5,979 bases of DNA from Planctomycetota bacterium (GTDB taxonomy: Bacteria > Planctomycetota > UBA1135 > UBA2386), in NCBI GenBank assembly GCA_020425885.1, contig JAGQRA010000684.1, forward strand, positions 1 to 5,979, in the 5' to 3' direction. The translations under genes were made by a program, and so were the position numbers. The notes under the pieces were generated by a model, which was given only the letters and a program-made list of their open reading frames with translations, did no database searches and had not been told where the DNA came from. How positions within the stretch are numbered: position 1 is the stretch's first letter; each line of letters starts with the position of its first letter. Of this stretch, positions 1 to 5,979 are shown one piece after another.

Positions 1-1
1 C

Positions 2-301
2 ACGTACTTTCTGGTGACTGGCGACGGCACGTTCCTGGTCAAGACCCGCGATGCGACGTCTACCGCGATCTTGGTGCCGTGGAGCGAGCACGCGGCCGTG
101 AACCGAGAGAACGCGGAGGCCACGGCCACCAACGACCTTGCCGTCGATGTCGGCGCGGAGACGACTCGCTTCCTCGTCAACGACAAGGAAGTGCATCGCG
201 CGCCGACGTCCACGCTGAAGACCGATGGCCTCTACGGCTGTCGCCTCGTGCACGACCTGCACGTCAAGTTCGAGAACGTGGCGGTGACCGCGCAGCCCTA
301 G
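2..301 (+). CDS. C-terminal part of a concanavalin-like (DUF1080/LamG-type) protein, 5' truncated
   Basis: The reading frame is open from the first bases of the window to a TAG at 299-301, giving about 99 residues without the true start. The visible part reads as a beta-sandwich C-terminus: short alternating strands such as GDGTFLVKTRD, a VPWSEHAAVN segment, then FLVNDKEVHRAP and a GLYGCRLVHDLHVKFENVAV end. This pattern of a 'ligand-like' strand, an xFxVNG/D turn and a final VxFxNVxV strand is typical of LamG/DUF1080-like (3-keto-disaccharide hydrolase or family 16-like) domains, which are common in secreted proteins of Planctomycetota and Bacteroidota. No catalytic residue can be assigned from this piece. 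It converges on the HMA lipoprotein pair, with 66 bases between the stops and no obvious strong terminator. Family assignment is by pattern recognition only and is moderately sure; substrate is unknown. Confidence 0.6.
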   Translation, partial: TYFLVTGDGTFLVKTRDATSTAILVPWSEHAAVNRENAEATATNDLAVDVGAETTRFLVNDKEVHRAPTSTLKTDGLYGCRLVHDLHVKFENVAVTAQP

Positions 302-367
302 TCAAACTGGCTCCGCGCCACCGCGATTCGGCGCGCTGGCCGGTTCAGGCAGAGGGCGAGCGCAGAC

Positions 368-657
368 CTACTTCTTCTGCGCTGGCTGTCCGCCCGCCGC
401 CATCCCTTCGAGCACCTTGTCGACGTTCGTCGTCGCAGGATCGTAGTGGACGGTGATCTCGGCGTTGCCCGCCGTGATCTCGCCCCCTTCACACCCGGCA
501 GCTTTTCCAGCGTGGCACGCACGCCGGCAACACAGCCGCCTCAAGTGGGCTTCTTGTCGAGGACCAACATGGCGTCCTTCGTTTCGATCGACACCGGCTG
601 GGTCGCGCAACCTGCGAGTGCGAACGCGGCCAGCAACGGCAGGGACGCGAGCCTCAT
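368..657 (-). CDS. HMA-domain lipoprotein with in-frame TGA (probable Sec) and an apparent frameshift; second of a tandem pair
   Basis: Starts at ATG 657-655 after an AGGTG ribosome site that lies inside the preceding gene; the ATG overlaps that gene's TGA (ATGA), so the two are probably translationally coupled. Residues 1-17 are a lipoprotein signal with lipobox LAGC (lipidated Cys17). After a short linker the frame meets TGA at 543-541 (codon 39), directly followed by GGC GGC TGT, so the product reads U-G-G-C-V-A-G-V-R where HMA/MerP domains have CxxC. The HMA pattern then continues (TLEKLPGV). After the G-run at 483-487 the match jumps frame: GEITAGNAEITVHYDPA and the tail to TAG 370-368 are in the -1 frame. 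A single -1 slip (GGG back by one base) gives V-K-G-G-E-I and a continuous 96-residue protein, which is the reason for joining the two parts. Likely role: periplasm-facing, membrane-anchored metal or thiol chemistry; the substrate is unknown. The frameshift may be a sequencing indel, a real lesion or programmed slippage. Confidence 0.7.
507..543 (-). promoter_or_regulatory. SECIS-like hairpin after the TGA of the second HMA gene
   Basis: On the minus strand, TGA (543-541) is followed by 13 bases and then an 8-bp stem: CCGGCGTG (527-520) pairs with CACGCTGG (514-507) with one G-U pair, closing a CGUGC loop (519-515). The loop begins 21 bases after the TGA, in the range known for bacterial SECIS elements, which sit within the coding region just downstream of the Sec codon and carry a G near the start of the apical loop. 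The same pentaloop occurs after the TGA of the neighbouring gene. Hairpins are easy to find in GC-rich DNA, so the support comes mainly from position and recurrence. Confidence 0.5.
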
Positions 658-977
658 GACTTCACCTTTGCGCCGGCCTTACCAGCGGCGACGAGCTTCG
701 CGGCCATGTCGGCTGGTTTGATCTTGGCGGCGTCGTAGTGGACGGTGAAGTCCTTGTCGCCGGACTTGATGTCGATCTGGCTGATGCCGTCGACCTTACC
801 CAGGGCACCGCGCACGGCGGTGATGCAGCCCCCTCAAATGTCCTCGCCCAACTCCAGCTTGACCTGCGACACGGTCGCAGCAGCACCCGGCGTCGGGTTG
901 CTCGGAGCGGTTGGCTCCGGCTTGCTGCAGGCGACCAGGAAAAGCGCACAGGCGCTCGCGACGAACAGTCGGTTCAT
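654..977 (-). CDS. HMA-domain lipoprotein with in-frame TGA, probable selenoprotein (U-G-G-C motif); first of a tandem pair
   Basis: Starts at ATG 977-975 with a good GAGGA ribosome site 9 bases upstream; 107 residues if the TGA at 836-834 (codon 48) is read as selenocysteine. Residues 1-17 are a lipoprotein signal ending in lipobox LVAC (Cys17), followed by a Pro/Ala/Ser linker (about 18-35). The HMA domain (about 36-100) shows strand VSQVKLELG, then U48-G-G-C51-I-T-A-V-R, helix, KVDGI, strand, and DFTVHYDAAKI, matching the MerP/copper-chaperone fold except that the first Cys of CxxC is the TGA codon. Everything after the TGA is in frame and domain-like up to the true TGA stop at 656-654, so this is not a decayed tail. 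HMA domains bind soft metals (Cu, Hg, Zn, Cd); a Sec at this position would give a selenol-thiol pair for metal binding or redox work outside the cytoplasmic membrane. The gene is transcribed away from the DUF1259 gene across a 184-base divergent region. Alternative: a nonsense mutation, made unlikely by the same arrangement in its diverged neighbour. Confidence 0.8.
803..836 (-). promoter_or_regulatory. SECIS-like hairpin after the TGA of the first HMA gene
   Basis: On the minus strand, TGA (836-834) is followed by 11 bases and a perfect 6-bp stem CACCGC (822-817) / GCGGTG (811-806) closing a CGUGC loop (816-812). A lower GGG/CCC helix (833-831 region with 805-803) can extend it. The loop begins 17 bases after the TGA, within the usual bacterial SECIS spacing, and has a G and U in the apical loop. 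SelB binding is inferred, not shown. Confidence 0.5.
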
Positions 978-1161
978 GATCTCGTTTCCTCGGTGACACC
1001 CCGCGAAACGTTCGCGGTGGGCGATGATCGTAGGCAGCACTCGGTGCCGCACCAGGGTGCGGCGTCCGTAGTTGATGGCGGCGGTTGGCAGTGCGGAGTG
1101 TCGCACCGTTCTCACTCTGGCGACCCTATGCTGGGCCGCCCCGCAACCCATGAGGATGCCC
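978..1161. promoter_or_regulatory. Divergent promoter region between the HMA pair and the DUF1259 gene
   Basis: This 184-base gap must hold promoters for both directions. It contains three inverted repeats: CCGCGAA-ACG-TTCGCGG at 1001-1017, which lies in the leader of the HMA operon just ahead of its ribosome site; GCCGCAC-CAGG-GTGCGGC at 1046-1063; and GTGCG-GAGTGT-CGCAC at 1091-1106. The last two share the GTGCG/CGCAC half-site in opposite arrangement. A TACGAT (1032-1027, minus) and a TATGCT (1127-1132, plus) are possible -10 boxes for the two directions, but neither has a convincing -35. Promoter positions are therefore weak; the inverted repeats are read directly. Confidence 0.35.
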
Positions 1162-2037
1162 ATGCAACTCGCACTCCAGATGCTCTGCTCCCTCTGCTTC
1201 GTCTTGTGCTTGCCGGCGCAGCAGCCCGACTGGAAGCCCGTGGGGGCAGTGCTCGGCGAGGCTGGCTCGGTTCTGCCCGACGGCACGTTCCGCATCGACG
1301 TGCCGCGCAAGGAGCCGGTCCTGCGCAACGAGTTCGGCTTCGTGGTCCCGCCGTCCATGGTGCTGACCTACGCAGCGTTCACGGGCACGCCCGAGCGCGC
1401 GTTCGTGGTGGGCGACACCTGCATGCTGCCCGAGGAGGTCAACCCGGTGCTCGATGAGCTGCGGAAGGGCAACCTGGAGGTCGTCGCGATCCACAATCAC
1501 ATGCTGGGCGGCAGCCCGAACTTCGTCTTCCTGCACTTCCAGGGGTCGGGTGCGGCGCTGGAAATGGGAAAGGCGATCCGGGCCGCGTGGGATCAGATGG
1601 GCAAGCAGCAGCCGGCTGCCGCACCGGCGGCAGCGACCCCGCCTGCGCCCGATTGGAAGGCGGTGTCCGACACGGTTGGGCTTGCCGGCGCGATGCAGAA
1701 GGACGGCATGTTCAAGATCGTGCTGCCGCGCCCGCAGTTGGGAACCGGCATCGATGGGCAGCGGCTTCCCGCGGGCGTCGGGCTCGCCTGCTGGGTCGGC
1801 TTCGCGCCTTGCGAGTGTGGGCGGACCATGGTCATGGGCGACATCTGCCTGCTCCGGAGCGAGTTGCAGCAAGCGATCGACGCCTACCGCAAGCACGGCA
1901 TTCGCATCGTCGCGATCCACAACCACATGCTCGGAACGAGTCCCGAGCTGATCTTCTGCCACTTCTCGGCGGAAGGGGATGCGATGGAGCTGGCGCGGGC
2001 CATCAAGGCGGTGTGGTCCCCGCTGCGAACGAAGTAG
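1162..2037 (+). CDS. Secreted protein with tandem DUF1259 (LppY/LpqO-type) domains
   Basis: Start chosen at ATG 1162 because GAGGA (1152-1156) lies 5 bases upstream and the product then opens with a compact signal peptide (residues 1-20, MQLALQMLCSLC through LCLPAQ); the in-frame ATGs at 1072, 1150 and 1156 lack a ribosome site. Length 291 residues. Two copies of the same domain follow: about 22-145 and 163-286, joined by a Pro/Ala-rich linker (147-162). Each copy starts PDWK(P/A)V, has a VVGD/VMGD-x-C-x-L segment, and ends in AIHNHMLG-S-P followed by (L/C)HF and an AIRAAW/AIKAVW helix. The His motifs fall at 111-115 with H125, and at 253-257 with H267. This matches the DUF1259 family, whose biochemical function is not established; the paired HNH and HF motifs could bind metal. 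Copy two is richer in Cys (210, 217, 219, 229, 266). It is transcribed divergently from the Sec-HMA pair and converges on the CadD-type gene. Family assignment is confident; role is unknown. Confidence 0.85.
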   Translation: MQLALQMLCSLCFVLCLPAQQPDWKPVGAVLGEAGSVLPDGTFRIDVPRKEPVLRNEFGFVVPPSMVLTYAAFTGTPERAFVVGDTCMLPEEVNPVLDELRKGNLEVVAIHNHMLGGSPNFVFLHFQGSGAALEMGKAIRAAWDQMGKQQPAAAPAAATPPAPDWKAVSDTVGLAGAMQKDGMFKIVLPRPQLGTGIDGQRLPAGVGLACWVGFAPCECGRTMVMGDICLLRSELQQAIDAYRKHGIRIVAIHNHMLGTSPELIFCHFSAEGDAMELARAIKAVWSPLRTK

Positions 2038-2183
2038 GGTCGGCTGTAGAACTGTGGCGACCGCGACCGCCGCTTGACCGCGATCGAGTTCGGCCCGCTC
2101 TGGCCCGCTCGGCAGAGTCTTGCACTGCGCTGCCATGCTCGGGCTGCTGCAACAGTTGGCCACTGCGACCCGCGTTCTTCGCG
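2038..2183. other. Short convergent intergenic region, no gene seen
   Basis: This lies between the stops of the DUF1259 gene and the CadD-type gene. It holds GC-rich repeats of CGACCGC-like words around 2057-2090, but no clean hairpin followed by a T-run, so no intrinsic terminator can be assigned. Confidence 0.4.
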
Positions 2184-2789
2184 CTACCCGAGCAGCACGC
2201 GAGCGTCCGAGAGGATCCACAGCCCGAGCCCGATCAGCACGACGGGCAGCGCCAGTCTTCCGTAGCGCCGTGCGCACGCCCCTACGACTCGGTTCTGTAT
2301 CAACCGGAAGCCCACGAAGCACCAGAGGGCTGTCATCAGGGCAAAGACCGATGCGTGAATCAGGATGTGCCCCGGCTCGCGTGCGAAGAGCGGGATGTAG
2401 ACTCCCAGGTTGTCGCCCCCGTTGGCGATCGTCACCCCGGCGATGGTCGCCACCTGCGAGCGCGCCCCTCGTCGTGCCACCTCTGCGGAGTCAGGTTGCT
2501 CGCCGTCGGCGCTGTCCTTCCGCCGCAGGGCCACGAGACTCCGCAGGCCGAGCGCGAGCGGCACGATGCCGAGAAGGGCGGGGTATCCCTCGGGCACAGT
2601 TAGGGCGACCAAGGCTGCGGCGGCGCTGATCGCGACCAGTACGCCAATTCCCAAGAACTGCCCCTCTACCACGCTGCGCGTGCGCAGGCTGGGGTCGGCG
2701 AAGAACGCGGCGAGCAGGAACAGGTCATCGACATTCGTCGCGGCAAAAACCGCCACGGCGACGCCGACCAAAGTGAGCAGGTCCATCAT
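2184..2789 (-). CDS. CadD-family cadmium/cation resistance transporter
   Basis: A 201-residue membrane protein using the ATG at 2789; an adjacent ATG (2786) and upstream in-frame starts (2840, 2831, 2900) are possible because none has a clear ribosome site, but the membrane domain begins here. Five or so hydrophobic segments are visible, about residues 4-16, 20-31, 44-64, 70-88, 142-163 and 180-195, separated by a charged cytosolic loop (89-110). The two hallmark motifs of the CadD group of the LysE superfamily are present: ATNVDDL (17-23) in the first helix pair and IANGGDNLGVYIPLF (121-135) in the second half. Members export Cd2+ (or related cations) from the cytoplasm; some homologues are only annotated by similarity. 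No ArsR/CadC-type regulator is visible beside it. It points toward the DUF1259 gene (converging). Family is sure; the actual ion is not. Confidence 0.85.
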   Translation of the reverse strand: MMDLLTLVGVAVAVFAATNVDDLFLLAAFFADPSLRTRSVVEGQFLGIGVLVAISAAAALVALTVPEGYPALLGIVPLALGLRSLVALRRKDSADGEQPDSAEVARRGARSQVATIAGVTIANGGDNLGVYIPLFAREPGHILIHASVFALMTALWCFVGFRLIQNRVVGACARRYGRLALPVVLIGLGLWILSDARVLLG

Positions 2790-3178
2790 CAGGTTGAGGG
2801 TGACGGTCGGATCGTCGAGCTTCTCGACCATCGCGACCATGACCGGGTGCGAACTTCGCGCGTCGCGGTGGTCGAAGCACCCGTCGTTGGCGCGGCGCAA
2901 CCGGATGCCGGACGGAAGCTACCCCTCGTCAACGGCCGACTCGTTCGAGGTGCGCTGGCCGGCATCACCGCATGACGACCCGCTGCCCGTGTCCGCGCTG
3001 CGCAACAGCCACGGCCGGCTCATCATGGTCTTCGCACCTCGAACCGATCGAGGGCGACGCGCCCCCTGGCCGCGTCCGCCGAACCCGGCTCGCGTCCTCG
3101 CGAGTGACGTCGAGTCAGCGATCGATGGTCGGGCTCATGAGGAACCGGGCAGAACTCTCTGCTACACTCCCGTGGCGC
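2790..3178. other. Intergenic region between the CadD-type gene and tRNA-Val, no convincing gene
   Basis: About 390 bases upstream of the transporter. Open frames cross it on both strands but none has a ribosome site, conserved motif or natural end, and they look like GC-rich background. If the transporter starts at 2840 or 2900 the gap is shorter. The only site recognised is the tRNA promoter at its right end. Confidence 0.4.
3160..3168 (+). promoter_or_regulatory. Extended -10 promoter of the tRNA-Val gene
   Basis: TGCTACACT, an extended -10 (TGn plus TACACT), ends about 10 bases before the first base of the tRNA, the spacing expected if transcription starts just ahead of the mature 5' end. 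No good -35 hexamer is visible, which fits an extended -10 type promoter. Confidence 0.5.
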
Positions 3179-3252
3179 ACACCCGTAGCTCAGCCGGTTA
3201 GAGCACTTCGCTTACATCGAAGGGGTCGTCCGTTCGAATCGGACCGGGTGTA
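3179..3252 (+). tRNA. tRNA-Val (anticodon TAC)
   Basis: A complete 74-nt cloverleaf: acceptor ACACCCG (3179-3185) pairs perfectly with CGGGTGT (3245-3251); D stem GCTC/GAGC (3188-3191, 3201-3204) with GG in the loop; anticodon stem CTTCG/CGAAG (3206-3210, 3218-3222) with loop CTTACAT, anticodon TAC at 3213-3215; variable loop GGGTC; T arm GTCCG-TTCGAAT-CGGAC (3228-3244); discriminator A at 3252. The CCA end is not encoded (TTC follows). It reads GUA and probably other Val codons. Confidence 0.93.
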
Positions 3253-3527
3253 TTCACGTCGCGTCCCGCCCGCGCAATCCTCGTGGCCGCCGGTGCCGGA
3301 CAGTCGTCGGCGGCGAGCCGGGTCTGGCCGCCGAGCATGGTGCTGAATCGGCCGGCGTTCGCCCTCGCGGTGCCCCCGAGAAGGTTTCGAACGCAACCTT
3401 TCGCCCGAAACTCGGCGCAACTCGATGGAACCGGGTGCAACCTGGTGCGACCCATTGCACCATGCCCCGCAAAGAGTTACGCTCGAAGCCGCCTTCGTGG
3501 CGGGACTTCCGCAAGAAGCCCGAATCC
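3253..3527. other. Gene-free region with hairpins and GGTGCAAC repeats
   Basis: No protein gene is supported: the open frames here run through tRNA sequence on one or both strands. Seen directly: a branched inverted-repeat structure at 3376-3415 (outer CCGAG/CTCGG around AAGGTT/AACCTT and a TTTCG/CGAAA arm); two 10-base steps GGTGCAACCT and GGTGCGACCC (3434-3453) followed by the inverted TTGCACC (3455-3461); and a hairpin GGGACTTC-CGCAA-GAAGCCC (3502-3521, one bulged A). These lie directly left of the tRNA 3' fragment, so they may belong to the end of a mobile element. Confidence 0.4.
3434..3461. repeat. Clustered GGTGCAAC-type repeats, possible recombinase or regulator sites
   Basis: GGTGCAAC at 3434-3441, GGTGCGAC at 3444-3451 on the same strand with 10-base period, and ATTGCACC at 3454-3461 in the opposite orientation. 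The first and last form a 7-bp inverted repeat with a 14-base spacer. A further copy GGTGCAAC lies at 3675-3682 on the other side of the tRNA fragment. Ten-base spacing places copies on the same DNA face, as for arm-type integrase sites or operators; which of these is unknown. Confidence 0.35.
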
Positions 3528-3574
3528 CTCTTACAAGGAGGATGTCGGCGGTTCGAGTCCGTCCGGGCGTACCA
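3528..3574 (+). pseudogene. Detached 3' half of a tRNA-Val(TAC) with encoded CCA, possible attachment-site remnant
   Basis: From about the anticodon loop onward the sequence is a normal tRNA: loop CTTACAA (3530-3536, anticodon TAC), 3' anticodon strand GGAGG (3537-3541), variable loop, T arm GGCGG-TTCGAGT-CCGTC (3547-3563), acceptor CGGGCGT (3564-3570), A and CCA (3571-3574). The 5' side does not fit: bases 3525-3529 make a poor stem with a C-A mismatch, and there is no D arm or T-A-GCTC at the proper distance. It is not a copy of the intact tRNA at 3179, which has different T arm and acceptor and no CCA. Integrases commonly recombine in tRNA anticodon or T regions and leave just such a 3' piece. 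A complementary ACGCTCG occurs at 3479-3485, which would make an aberrant 93-nt molecule; I judge that to be chance. Confidence 0.6.
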
Positions 3575-3721
3575 CACACCCCTGCGCCCCTACCCACTCA
3601 CCCCTTCGCCATACCATACAAGTGCGAGGTCCTCTTACTCCCGTCCGCGCCTAACGTGCGGTGACGCGCTTCGAGGTGCAACTACGAAGCGCGTAAGCCC
3701 CCACGCCCAGGATGGGACGGC
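3575..3721. other. Leader region ahead of the histidine kinase
   Basis: A C-rich stretch (3575-3610) follows the CCA end, with no gene. It ends with the strong hairpin listed separately and a ribosome site AGGA (3709-3712). No -35/-10 pair convincing enough to annotate was found. Confidence 0.4.
3664..3694 (+). promoter_or_regulatory. 10-bp perfect inverted repeat in the leader of the histidine kinase gene
   Basis: ACGCGCTTCG (3664-3673) and CGAAGCGCGT (3685-3694) are perfect complements around an 11-base loop containing GGTGCAAC. No T-run follows, so it is not a standard intrinsic terminator. It lies 27 bases before the kinase ATG and could be a transcript hairpin, an operator, or part of an attachment region given the shared motif with 3434-3461. 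Confidence 0.5.
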
Positions 3722-4927
3722 ATGTTCCCCGATCGTACTGACACCTCTACGGATGCCCGTCTGCGCATGGCCTTGACGGCCGCGCGCATGGGGATCTGGG
3801 AGTGGGACGTGGGCGGCGATCACGTCTACTGGTCACCCGAGGTCGAAGCCCTGTTCGGCTCCCCGCCCGGAGCATTTCCGCCGACGTTCGCGGCCTTCCT
3901 CGAACTCGTGCACCCGGACGATCGCGACGATCTGCAACGGTGCGTGAAGAACGCGCTCCGCGGATCATCCGATCGGTTCGCGCTCGATCATCGCGCAACG
4001 CGCCCGGATGGCAGCCGGATCTGGCTGCATTGCACCGGCGTGGTGAGGCGCGCCGACGATGGCGTCCCGGAGCGCATGATCGGCACCGTCGCCGACATCA
4101 CGGAGCAGAAGAGCCTCGAGGCGCAGCTTCGCGAGGCGCAGAAGATGGAAGGCCTCGGACGACTGGCCGGCGGCATCGCGCATGACTTCAACAACCTGCT
4201 CACCATCGTCCTCGGCGAGATCGAGTTGCTGCAGTTCGAGTCCGAACTCGCGCCGCACGTCGACGCCAGCCTGCACAATGTCGTGGATGCCGCACACCGA
4301 GGTCAGCTGCTGACGCGGCAGCTGCTGACGTTTGCGCGACAACGTGCCTTGCAGGAGGACTCCAAGGATGCCGGGGAGACCCTGCACCACCTGAAGCCGA
4401 TGCTGCGGCGGCTCGCGGGCAGCGGCATCAACACCGAGATCGTGATCGAGGAAGGCTTGGGCGAGGTACTCGTCACCCACGCCCAGATCGAACAGGTGCT
4501 GATGAACCTCGTGCTCAACGCCAAGGAGGCGATGCCACGCGGCGGCAAGTTGACCCTGCTTGCGGAGGCCCTCGAGATCGACGAACAGGATCTCGACGCA
4601 CCTGCCGCCGGCCTCGGCCGCGGAGTTCCGGCAGGCACCTGGCTACACGTCACGGTCGCCGACACCGGCCCGGGGATCGATGAGACGGTCCTCAATCACA
4701 TCTTCGAACCGTTCTTCACGACCAAGCCAGAAGGTACGGGACTCGGGCTGTCGACCTGCTACGGCATCGTCGATCAATGCGGCGGCGTGATCTGGGCCGA
4801 CACCCGACCGGGAGGCGGCACGGTGTTCCATGTCCTGGTGCCGCACGTGAAACGACTCCCACGAACGAATCAGGTGCGCAAGCCGTCCGAAAGTGGCGCG
4901 GCGCAGTCGGCGCAATCCGAGGATTGA
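3722..4927 (+). CDS. Cytoplasmic PAS-domain sensor histidine kinase
   Basis: 401 residues from ATG 3722 with AGGA 9 bases upstream. No signal peptide or membrane segment, so the kinase is soluble. A PAS domain (about 15-128) begins with the RLRMALTAARMGIWEWDV signature, has a HPDDR turn (64-68) and ends with GTVADITEQK, the usual PAC exit. HisKA follows: H-box GRLAGGIAHDFNNLL with phospho-acceptor His154. The ATPase domain has the N-box QVLMNLVLNAKEA (Asn266), G1 DTGPGI (314-319), F-box IFEPFFTTK (327-335) and G2 GTGLGL (338-343). All residues needed for autophosphorylation are present. The HDFNNLL-type H-box is common in orphan or hybrid kinases of deltaproteobacteria, Planctomycetota and others; here there is no receiver domain and the C-terminus is a polar tail. 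No response regulator gene is visible, so the partner is unknown. It converges with the lipoprotein gene 16 bases beyond its TGA. PAS ligand unknown. Confidence 0.93.
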   Translation: MFPDRTDTSTDARLRMALTAARMGIWEWDVGGDHVYWSPEVEALFGSPPGAFPPTFAAFLELVHPDDRDDLQRCVKNALRGSSDRFALDHRATRPDGSRIWLHCTGVVRRADDGVPERMIGTVADITEQKSLEAQLREAQKMEGLGRLAGGIAHDFNNLLTIVLGEIELLQFESELAPHVDASLHNVVDAAHRGQLLTRQLLTFARQRALQEDSKDAGETLHHLKPMLRRLAGSGINTEIVIEEGLGEVLVTHAQIEQVLMNLVLNAKEAMPRGGKLTLLAEALEIDEQDLDAPAAGLGRGVPAGTWLHVTVADTGPGIDETVLNHIFEPFFTTKPEGTGLGLSTCYGIVDQCGGVIWADTRPGGGTVFHVLVPHVKRLPRTNQVRKPSESGAAQSAQSED

Positions 4928-4943
4928 CCCGGGCTCGATGCGG

Positions 4944-5372
4944 TCAGCTGCCGCCCTCTTCCTGCGGCAGACGCGGCCCCTCTTGCGGGGTGAACTCGTA
5001 GCTCGTCACGGCATCGGACGAACCGAACCAGGCGCGGCGCAGCGTGAAGTCGAGGACATCGCTGGCGCCTCCCAGAAAGGCATGGCCGATGGCCGCGCCG
5101 CTCAGCGCCGGGAACAGCAGGAACTCGGTCCGGCCGTTGGGACCGAGTTCGTCCTCGGCCATCAGGCTGATCGGGTAGGTGACCGGCAGCGCGACGATCG
5201 AGGCGACCCCGCCGACGATGCCACCGACCCAGGCCCCGACGCCGGCGCAGGCCCTGACCCACATCGGCCTGCCGAGTTCTGCCGGCGGGCACTTCTCGCC
5301 AAGGGAGTCGATGGCATGAGGAACCGCGCAACTGCCCAACAGAAGCGCGGAGAGCACGATGAACCGTCGCAT
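4944..5372 (-). CDS. Small lipoprotein of unknown function with a Gly-rich membrane segment
   Basis: 142 residues from ATG 5372-5370 to TGA 4946-4944. The start is supported by the signal sequence it gives: MRRFIVLSALLLGSC with lipobox LGSC, lipidated Cys15. A Gly-rich hydrophobic stretch with small-residue spacing (about 42-71, GVGAWVGGIVGGVASIV) resembles a glycine-zipper membrane segment, and a second GAAIGHAFLGGASDVLDFTL segment (92-111) follows. The C-terminal tail is acidic and proline-rich. I do not recognise the family. A TATGAT box (5386-5381, minus) with TTGCCG 19 bases further upstream lies only about 8 bases before the ATG, so if it has its own promoter the mRNA may be nearly leaderless; there is no clear ribosome site. 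It lies 40 bases downstream of the TPR gene in the same direction and could equally be co-transcribed. Confidence 0.7.
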   Translation of the reverse strand: MRRFIVLSALLLGSCAVPHAIDSLGEKCPPAELGRPMWVRACAGVGAWVGGIVGGVASIVALPVTYPISLMAEDELGPNGRTEFLLFPALSGAAIGHAFLGGASDVLDFTLRRAWFGSSDAVTSYEFTPQEGPRLPQEEGGS

Positions 5373-5412
5373 TGCGGCGGATCATAACTCAATCTGCCTC
5401 ACCGACGGCAAC

Positions 5413-5979
5413 TCATCCGCCGCGCCGCTCGGCGTCGAGGCGGACGGCGTCGGTCGACGCTTCGTTCTTCTTGTCCGAAGCCCGCTGCAAGGCGCGACGG
5501 GCCGACATCGCCTGCACCGCCTTGCGCAGGCGCGCGGCGACGGCGGGATCATCATGGTCATCGAGCTCCGGCACCTGCTCGGCTCGTTCGATCACGCCGG
5601 CCGCCGCATCGAGATCGCCATGGGCTATCAACAACAGGGCGAGCCGATTGGCGGCGGCGATCGTCTGGCGCCCCGAACGTGCCGACTCGAGCGCGATCCT
5701 GCCCGCGGCGATGGCATCTTCGCTGCGGCCCATTACCTGCAGCAGCTTCGCGGTCTCGAGCCGCGCCCGTTGGGCGGGCGGACTCGTAGGGTCGGACTCG
5801 ATCGCCTTCCGATAGCTCGCCAACGCATCCTCGGCGCGATTCTGACGGCGTTGCACGTCGCCCGCTCCCAGCAATCCACGCGGGCCGAATCGGGCGCGAT
5901 CGAGACGCGCCGCCATCAGGTAGTCCTTCTCGGCCACGGGCAGGCTGCCATGCCGCCGCCAGAGCTCGGCGGCGGCGTA
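5413..5979 (-). CDS. C-terminal part of a TPR-repeat protein, N-terminus outside the window
   Basis: The frame is open from the window edge (5979) to a stop at 5415-5413, giving 188 residues; a GTG at 5937 is in frame but the open frame and repeat pattern continue upstream, so it is probably internal. Tetratricopeptide-like helix pairs are clear: EKDYLMAARLDRARFGPRGL; LLGAGDVQRRQNRAEDALA then SYRKAIESDPTSPP; RLETAKLLQVMGRSEDAIAA then GRIALES; and AANRLALLLIAHGDLDAAAG then VIERAEQVPE. The W/L-G-Y/A-P spacing of roughly 34 residues is approximate. The last 50 residues are charged and helical without further repeats. TPRs mediate protein-protein contacts; no enzymatic domain is seen in this part. 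It is followed 40 bases later by the unknown lipoprotein in the same direction. Confidence 0.75.
   Translation of the reverse strand, partial: YAAAELWRRHGSLPVAEKDYLMAARLDRARFGPRGLLGAGDVQRRQNRAEDALASYRKAIESDPTSPPAQRARLETAKLLQVMGRSEDAIAAGRIALESARSGRQTIAAANRLALLLIAHGDLDAAAGVIERAEQVPELDDHDDPAVAARLRKAVQAMSARRALQRASDKKNEASTDAVRLDAERRGG

Follow-up and report, generated by a model that had tools for sequence, protein, structure and literature searches.

The closest described systems are HMA-domain proteins, some of which already contain selenocysteine (Sec). MerP (TIGR02052) is, like the protein considered here, an exported single HMA domain. It differs in using two Cys residues where the present protein has a Sec-Cys pair, and the lipid anchor is a feature of the present protein. 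The TIGR02052 model is matched by 24 of 29 members of the family described below at E 1e-5 or better; on the protein itself it scores 31.8 bits against a cut-off of 92.55, and no mer family was found among the neighbouring genes scanned. The best NCBIfam model by E-value is NF041115, the UxxU metal-binding (seleno)protein, which likewise carries Sec in the metal loop of an HMA-type domain. Its score of 31.6 bits lies below the cut-off of 95, its 74-position model begins at residue 34 of the protein, past the lipoprotein signal, and its motif is UxxU, whereas the protein here has UxGC.

Other HMA-related selenoproteins are more distant. The available portion of a 2026 review (PMC13188914) lists NF041115 together with a Sec-containing cation-transporting P-type ATPase with a UxxC motif, a large membrane pump as opposed to a stand-alone lipoprotein. 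One locus in our collection (L043) looks like a planctomycete Sec P-type ATPase in which Sec replaces the first Cys of the HMA CxxC. The MerT/CopZ fusion-like selenoprotein NF045683 is also an HMA-related heavy-metal selenoprotein; its model scores 22.1 bits against a cut-off of 375 and is matched in its C-terminal part only. The protein falls far under the cut-off of the CopZ model too. Selenoproteins have been reported in two planctomycetes (PMC4807772, in the part available). The initial annotation called the present locus a system it did not recognise, which holds in part: HMA-domain selenoproteins are already known, whereas the stand-alone lipid-anchored UxGC pair looks new, no such protein having been found in searches of the open PMC literature, including the accessible portions of PMC13188914, PMC9312934 and PMC4807772.

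The locus lies in a stretch of 5,979 nucleotides from a Planctomycetota bacterium (contig JAGQRA010000684.1, positions 1 to 5,979), called the window here. Gene 1 (654..977, minus strand) has 107 codons when its TGA is read as Sec, plus a stop. Its first part is a lipoprotein signal (927..977) with the lipobox LVAC and Cys17; signal and lipobox were judged by eye, and Cys17 is invariant in a 29-row protein alignment. The in-frame TGA is codon 48 (834..836) and takes the first position of the CxxC motif. It is followed by GGG GGC TGC, the last of these being Cys51 (825..827), the partner of the predicted Sec48, and then by an HMA continuation that includes TVHYD. With the TGA read as a residue, Pfam places the HMA domain (PF00403) at residues 48-100 (678..836) with E 8.5e-8 and 32.9 bits, over the curated cut-off of 24.8. 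The leading Met of the usual MxCxxC is absent.

The stop codon of gene 1, itself TGA, overlaps the ATG of gene 2 as ATGA. Gene 2 starts at 657 on the minus strand, and its first part (487..657) contains a lipoprotein signal with lipobox LAGC and Cys17 (by eye), a TGA at codon 39 (541..543; predicted Sec) and the start of an HMA domain. On this part, 57 aa up to a frame break at 482..490, PF00403 gives E 0.0018 and 19.1 bits, under the cut-off. The second part (368..484) continues in another frame with TVHYD and ends in TAG. The initial annotation had described two neighbouring minus-strand frames, each running from a lipoprotein signal through TGA to Gly-Gly-Cys, with flanking codons that differ (GGG GGC TGC in gene 1, GGC GGC TGT in gene 2), and both genes are as it described. 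It had also placed a TVHYD continuation in both; this is correct for gene 1, where the frame is the same, whereas in gene 2 the motif lies beyond the break. Elsewhere in the window there is a tRNA-Val (anticodon tac) at 3179-3252 and a weak tRNA-like match (18.7 bits, under the cut-off) at 3505-3571.

The nearest relative found, locus L001, was the one hit when genome contigs were scanned, and it belongs to a Planctomycetota MAG (isolate ACE_PLA30, genome G001). It has the same tandem pair, with both TGAs kept and gene 2 intact. The gene 1 proteins of the window and L001 are 90% identical, and the two proteins of the intact L001 pair are 34% identical to each other, in agreement with the figure of about one third given initially. 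Codon comparison of gene 1 shows 4 synonymous and 5 nonsynonymous differences in the 47 codons before the TGA, and 9 and 6 in the 59 codons after it. In gene 2 the corresponding counts are 6 and 5 in the 38 codons before the TGA, 2 and 0 in the 18 codons from the TGA to the break, and 5 and 0 in the 37 codons beyond. Clear decay after the TGA, which would have spoken against the proposal of a selenoprotein pair, is thus not seen in comparison with L001.

The machinery for Sec insertion, the other point on which that proposal depended, was found in the genome of this relative. In G001, selB (330 bits), selA (462 bits) and tRNA-Sec (77 bits) all score above their family cut-offs, and ARAGORN reports a tRNA-SeC with anticodon tca. 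Among 14 control genomes, the cut-offs were exceeded by two for selB, one for selA and five for tRNA-Sec; taken alone, the tRNA-Sec cut-off (47 bits) is therefore loose. Sec usage is general in the order to which G001 belongs: 139 of 154 genomes lie above the cut-off for each of selA and tRNA-Sec. Among the 23 genomes with a strong TGA-containing family member, selA is over its cut-off in 22 (G438 has no match) and tRNA-Sec in all 23, with at least 69 bits in 22 and 57.7 bits in G438.

The same 154 genomes define the family. A five-row profile matched 84 of them, and 33 matches of at least 50 bits, from 26 genomes, were kept; window gene 1 brings the family to 34 rows. Matches below 50 bits were excluded, and many of these lie in open frames of 700-1000 aa, like P-type ATPases. 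In-frame stops in the 34 rows are confined to one alignment column, which holds TGA in 30 rows and Cys in four, and there is no TAA, TAG or further TGA. The metal loop accordingly reads Sec-x-x-Cys in the TGA rows and Cys-x-x-Cys in G126, G504, G476 and G477c. The 29-row protein alignment has three invariant columns: the lipobox Cys, the Sec/Cys site and the second Cys. A UGA that lies in frame and lines up with conserved Cys or Sec residues in homologues is one mark of a bacterial selenoprotein gene, and the initial expectation that homologues would carry only Sec or Cys at this codon is borne out in all 34 strong rows. The in-frame TGAs are real and very probably encode selenocysteine.

Two of the Cys forms, in G126 (CQGC) and G504 (CGNC), have flanking genes in common with the Sec forms of G486, G478, G479 and G491, so the Sec/Cys switch seemingly took place at one orthologous locus. 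The Cys rows fall in at least two places in the tree, G126 with G504 and G476 apart. Genomes with Cys forms are not plainly Sec-less: selA and tRNA-Sec both exceed their cut-offs in G126 and G476, and G504 has the tRNA with selA unmatched. The fourth Cys row, G477c, comes from genome G477, which also has a TGA member.

The predicted fold is HMA/MerP-like, following the lipoprotein signal. An AlphaFold2 model of gene 1 has the order beta-alpha-beta-beta-alpha, with block mean pLDDT of 81-85 over residues 41-100 (whole mean 69), and Sec48 immediately precedes the first helix. Its top solved structure is MerP 1osd, with TM scores of 0.86 and 0.60 when normalised to the length of the target and of the query, respectively; by sequence, PDB profile matches are to copper ATPase domains, MerP and CopZ. 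We favour, as a reasonably likely account, a tandem of overlapping paralogous selenoproteins whose lipid-anchored HMA domains bind a soft metal through Sec-Gly-Gly-Cys. SelB and tRNA-Sec would very likely insert Sec at the UGA, and the protein would very likely be exported and lipid-anchored outside the cytoplasmic membrane. There the selenolate-thiolate pair of the Sec-Gly-Gly-Cys loop may act as ligand for a soft metal, Hg(II), Cu(I), Ag(I) or Cd(II), by analogy with MerP and CopZ, which use two thiolates. The captured ion might be kept, or handed to the sister protein or to an efflux system, and the ATGA overlap would allow both proteins of a pair to be produced in step. A more specific version, in which the two selenoproteins form a surface relay and their paralogous lipid-anchored HMA domains pass a soft metal (such as Hg or Cu) between them, is tentative and, on balance, unlikely.

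The main rival accepts the selenoprotein and gives it a redox role, with Sec-Gly-Gly-Cys forming a selenenylsulfide in an exported thiol-disulfide or peroxide-reducing protein built on an HMA scaffold. In the available part of PMC13188914, UxxC and CxxU are described as motifs related to redox activity, and most selenoproteins still uncharacterised are expected to have redox roles. The missing Met of MxCxxC points the same way, as does a related planctomycete HMA lipoprotein (L024, MTUxxxU) that is fused to a thioredoxin-like stretch with WCGPC (by eye). The fold and the best-scoring relatives are nevertheless those of metal carriers, and no recurring redox partner gene appears among the neighbours examined. 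A redox role is a serious possibility that we consider the less probable one; the preferred function would be the binding of soft metals outside the membrane, by selenolate and thiolate together.

Gene neighbourhoods vary by lineage, and a conserved metal operon, sought as a guide to function, was not found. In the window, a CadD-like transporter lies ~1.2 kb upstream (over the Pfam cut-off, under that of NCBIfam), and a divergent gene at 1072-2037 has two DUF1259 stretches (PF07485); a similar ORF adjoins the pair in L001. Near L001 there are an ECF sigma factor, an HMA-bearing P-type ATPase and an outer-membrane efflux protein. Together with the CadD-like transporter, these genes offer hints of a metal role. 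At 11 other loci no scanned neighbour belongs to a metal-handling Pfam family, and several neighbours matched nothing. Peptidase M18 and BtpA occur in G393 and G394, and a VIT/VWA protein in G486. G503 and G498 have a methyltransferase gene after the pair, and G477 has one after its single gene. In three genomes a SAM methyltransferase gene comes ~30-60 bp behind the HMA gene or pair in the same orientation (L081:3656-4573:+, L082:6040-6990:-, L089:7151-7681:+; starts set by a simple rule).

Whether both genes of the window work is a separate matter. Because of the frame break near 482-490, gene 2 could be read as a decaying pseudogene, leaving gene 1 to work alone here. This is doubtful. Over the 18 codons from the TGA to the break and the 37 beyond it, gene 2 differs from L001 by 7 synonymous and 0 nonsynonymous changes, and relatives with an intact frame are known: at the break site, where the window shows a one-base length difference, the frame is unbroken in L001 and in the database stubs P0022, P0025, P0031 and P0034. 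The break could equally well stem from a mistake in sequencing or assembly, or from a lesion that arose very recently.

The pair itself recurs. Besides the window, adjacent TGA-containing genes occur in L001, G503, G498 and G479; in G479 the second copy is broken and has masked bases. The TGA of gene 2 is the same in gene 2 of L001 and in the second gene of both G503 and G498. A tree of 34 rows groups all eight second-gene-like rows in a single clade (support 99/92), the second genes of L001, G503 and G498 among them. The second-gene-like labels were fixed before the tree was made, three by position and five by similarity judged by eye. Since the second-gene types form one clade and the pairs recur, the duplication is probably older than these genomes, and the ancient duplication proposed initially stands on this clade.

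A hairpin just past the UGA, where a bacterial SECIS would lie, adds an RNA-level signal. According to the available part of PMC1088965, a feature of the bacterial SECIS is a small apical loop with a G. The present family has such a loop, CGUGC or CGUGA, on a 6-bp stem, with 17 nt from the UGA to the loop. Of 31 TGA genes (window genes 1 and 2 plus 29 family rows), 27 have this hairpin complete, and none of the four Cys genes does. G477c retains 5 of the 6 pairs, and G476 the CGTGA loop. In window gene 1 the hairpin lies at 806..822 (minus strand) with loop CGUGC. A scan along the whole length of 30 TGA rows found that any other position relative to the UGA is common to at most three of them.

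Substitutions within the stem are coordinated. In the 31-row alignment, 93.5% of stem cells are paired, compared with 82.2% after shuffling; 27 cells are changed on both sides, compared with 7.0; and the covariation score is 0.480, compared with 0.240. For each measure 0 of 500 shuffles reached the observed value, counts that are not probabilities because the rows are related. Sliding the partner by 1 to 3 columns left at most 4 cells changed on both sides. Two other counts do not stand out: 5 pairs are changed on both sides (3.4 shuffled, 36 of 500 as high), and there are 8 further pair types (7.5 shuffled, 251 of 500 as high). In most genes the sixth codon after Sec is ACC (Thr) or GCC (Ala). 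The partner of its first base is base three of the Arg/Ser codon two further on (AU in 19 genes, GC in 9, GU in 2, unpaired in 1). Likewise, the third base of the fifth codon pairs with the first base of the ninth (CG in 24, UA in 6, unpaired in 1). Silent positions thus track amino-acid changes, a pattern in favour of selection on the RNA.

The complete 6-bp stem is missing from four of the 31 TGA genes, namely gene 2 of the window, gene 2 of L001, G460 and G439. In the two second genes the same loop is closed by a stem of 8 bp and lies 21 nt past the UGA, the hairpin being at 507..527 (minus strand, loop CGUGC) in the window; against dinucleotide shuffles its z is -2.95 there, and -2.53 for the same stem in L001. 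Folding by free energy gives a weaker picture. The RNAfold minimum for gene 1 is not the conserved hairpin (z -1.31 in the window, -1.02 in L001), and RNAalifold on the family chose other pairs. Minimum-free-energy folding against mononucleotide shuffles gave a mean z of -0.82 for the 31 TGA genes and 0.19 for the four Cys genes, and a search of the window with Rfam returned no SECIS family at E up to 5. With free-energy folding weak, the case for the hairpin rests on its position and covariation. An A/T-V-R motif encoded in this region in the Sec forms is absent from three of the four Cys forms (G126, G504 and G476), and G477c retains V-R; conservation of the motif may thus reflect the RNA hairpin in addition to the protein.

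Public databases hold the family mostly as fragments. The family profile retrieved 36 proteins, 27 of them 51-53 aa long, and the 14 short proteins inspected begin at the Val/Met residue of V-R, whose GTG codon lies in the region of the hairpin. Four other stubs (P0004-P0007) end before the UGA. This agrees with the prediction that standard gene callers would miss or truncate these genes. Taken at face value, such entries would suit a reading in which the TGAs are true stops, giving short lipoprotein peptides whose downstream halves are translated from the hairpin-region GTG or left untranslated. Both kinds of stub, the four N-terminal calls and the 14 sequences from the GTG, are equally what a Sec-blind gene caller is expected to produce. 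A single column of TGA or Cys only, codon-level conservation on either side of the TGA, and a covarying hairpin together with Sec machinery make true stops very improbable. If TGA were reassigned to another amino acid throughout the genome, both genes would likewise show it in frame; this is a negligible prospect, given that TGA terminates gene 1 and a histidine kinase (4925-4927), that TGA-less homologues have Cys at the site and not Gly or Trp, and that the nearest genome has a tRNA-Sec.

Related arrangements occur elsewhere in the phylum. A phylum-wide search matched 50 of 392 genomes, and of 29 translated loci besides those of the L001 genome itself, 11 have a TGA inside the match, always at the first Cys of the HMA motif. 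Examples include MTUGAGC beside MTCGAGC in two relatives, and MTUxxxU. Sec in HMA loops therefore looks frequent in Planctomycetota. Several loci merit mention in their own right. L024, L027, L037 and L046 encode HMA proteins with TGAs at both motif Cys positions (MTUxxxU; KUMGU in L046). L040 and L031 are very similar HMA lipoproteins from two genomes, with MTUGAGC and MTCGAGC, and so form a clean Sec/Cys pair in another HMA subfamily. Tandem HMA selenoprotein genes of a different subfamily from the window pair are found in G408 (L105, 4471 and 4070, minus strand; MTUAVGC and MSUGTMC) and in G388 (L106, 4830, minus strand; MTUASC, with a second one-TGA match alongside).

These observations add a conserved group of exported, lipid-anchored selenoproteins to the short list of metal-related ones. 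They also expose a repeated annotation error, in that gene callers tend to split such Sec genes in two. With Sec and Cys forms occurring naturally at the same syntenic locus, what Sec brings to a metal-binding loop can be put to a direct test. Finally, the relay between sister proteins, if true, would represent selenium-based metal trafficking outside the cytoplasm, in which each domain contributes one selenolate and one thiolate and the two are encoded by overlapping genes.
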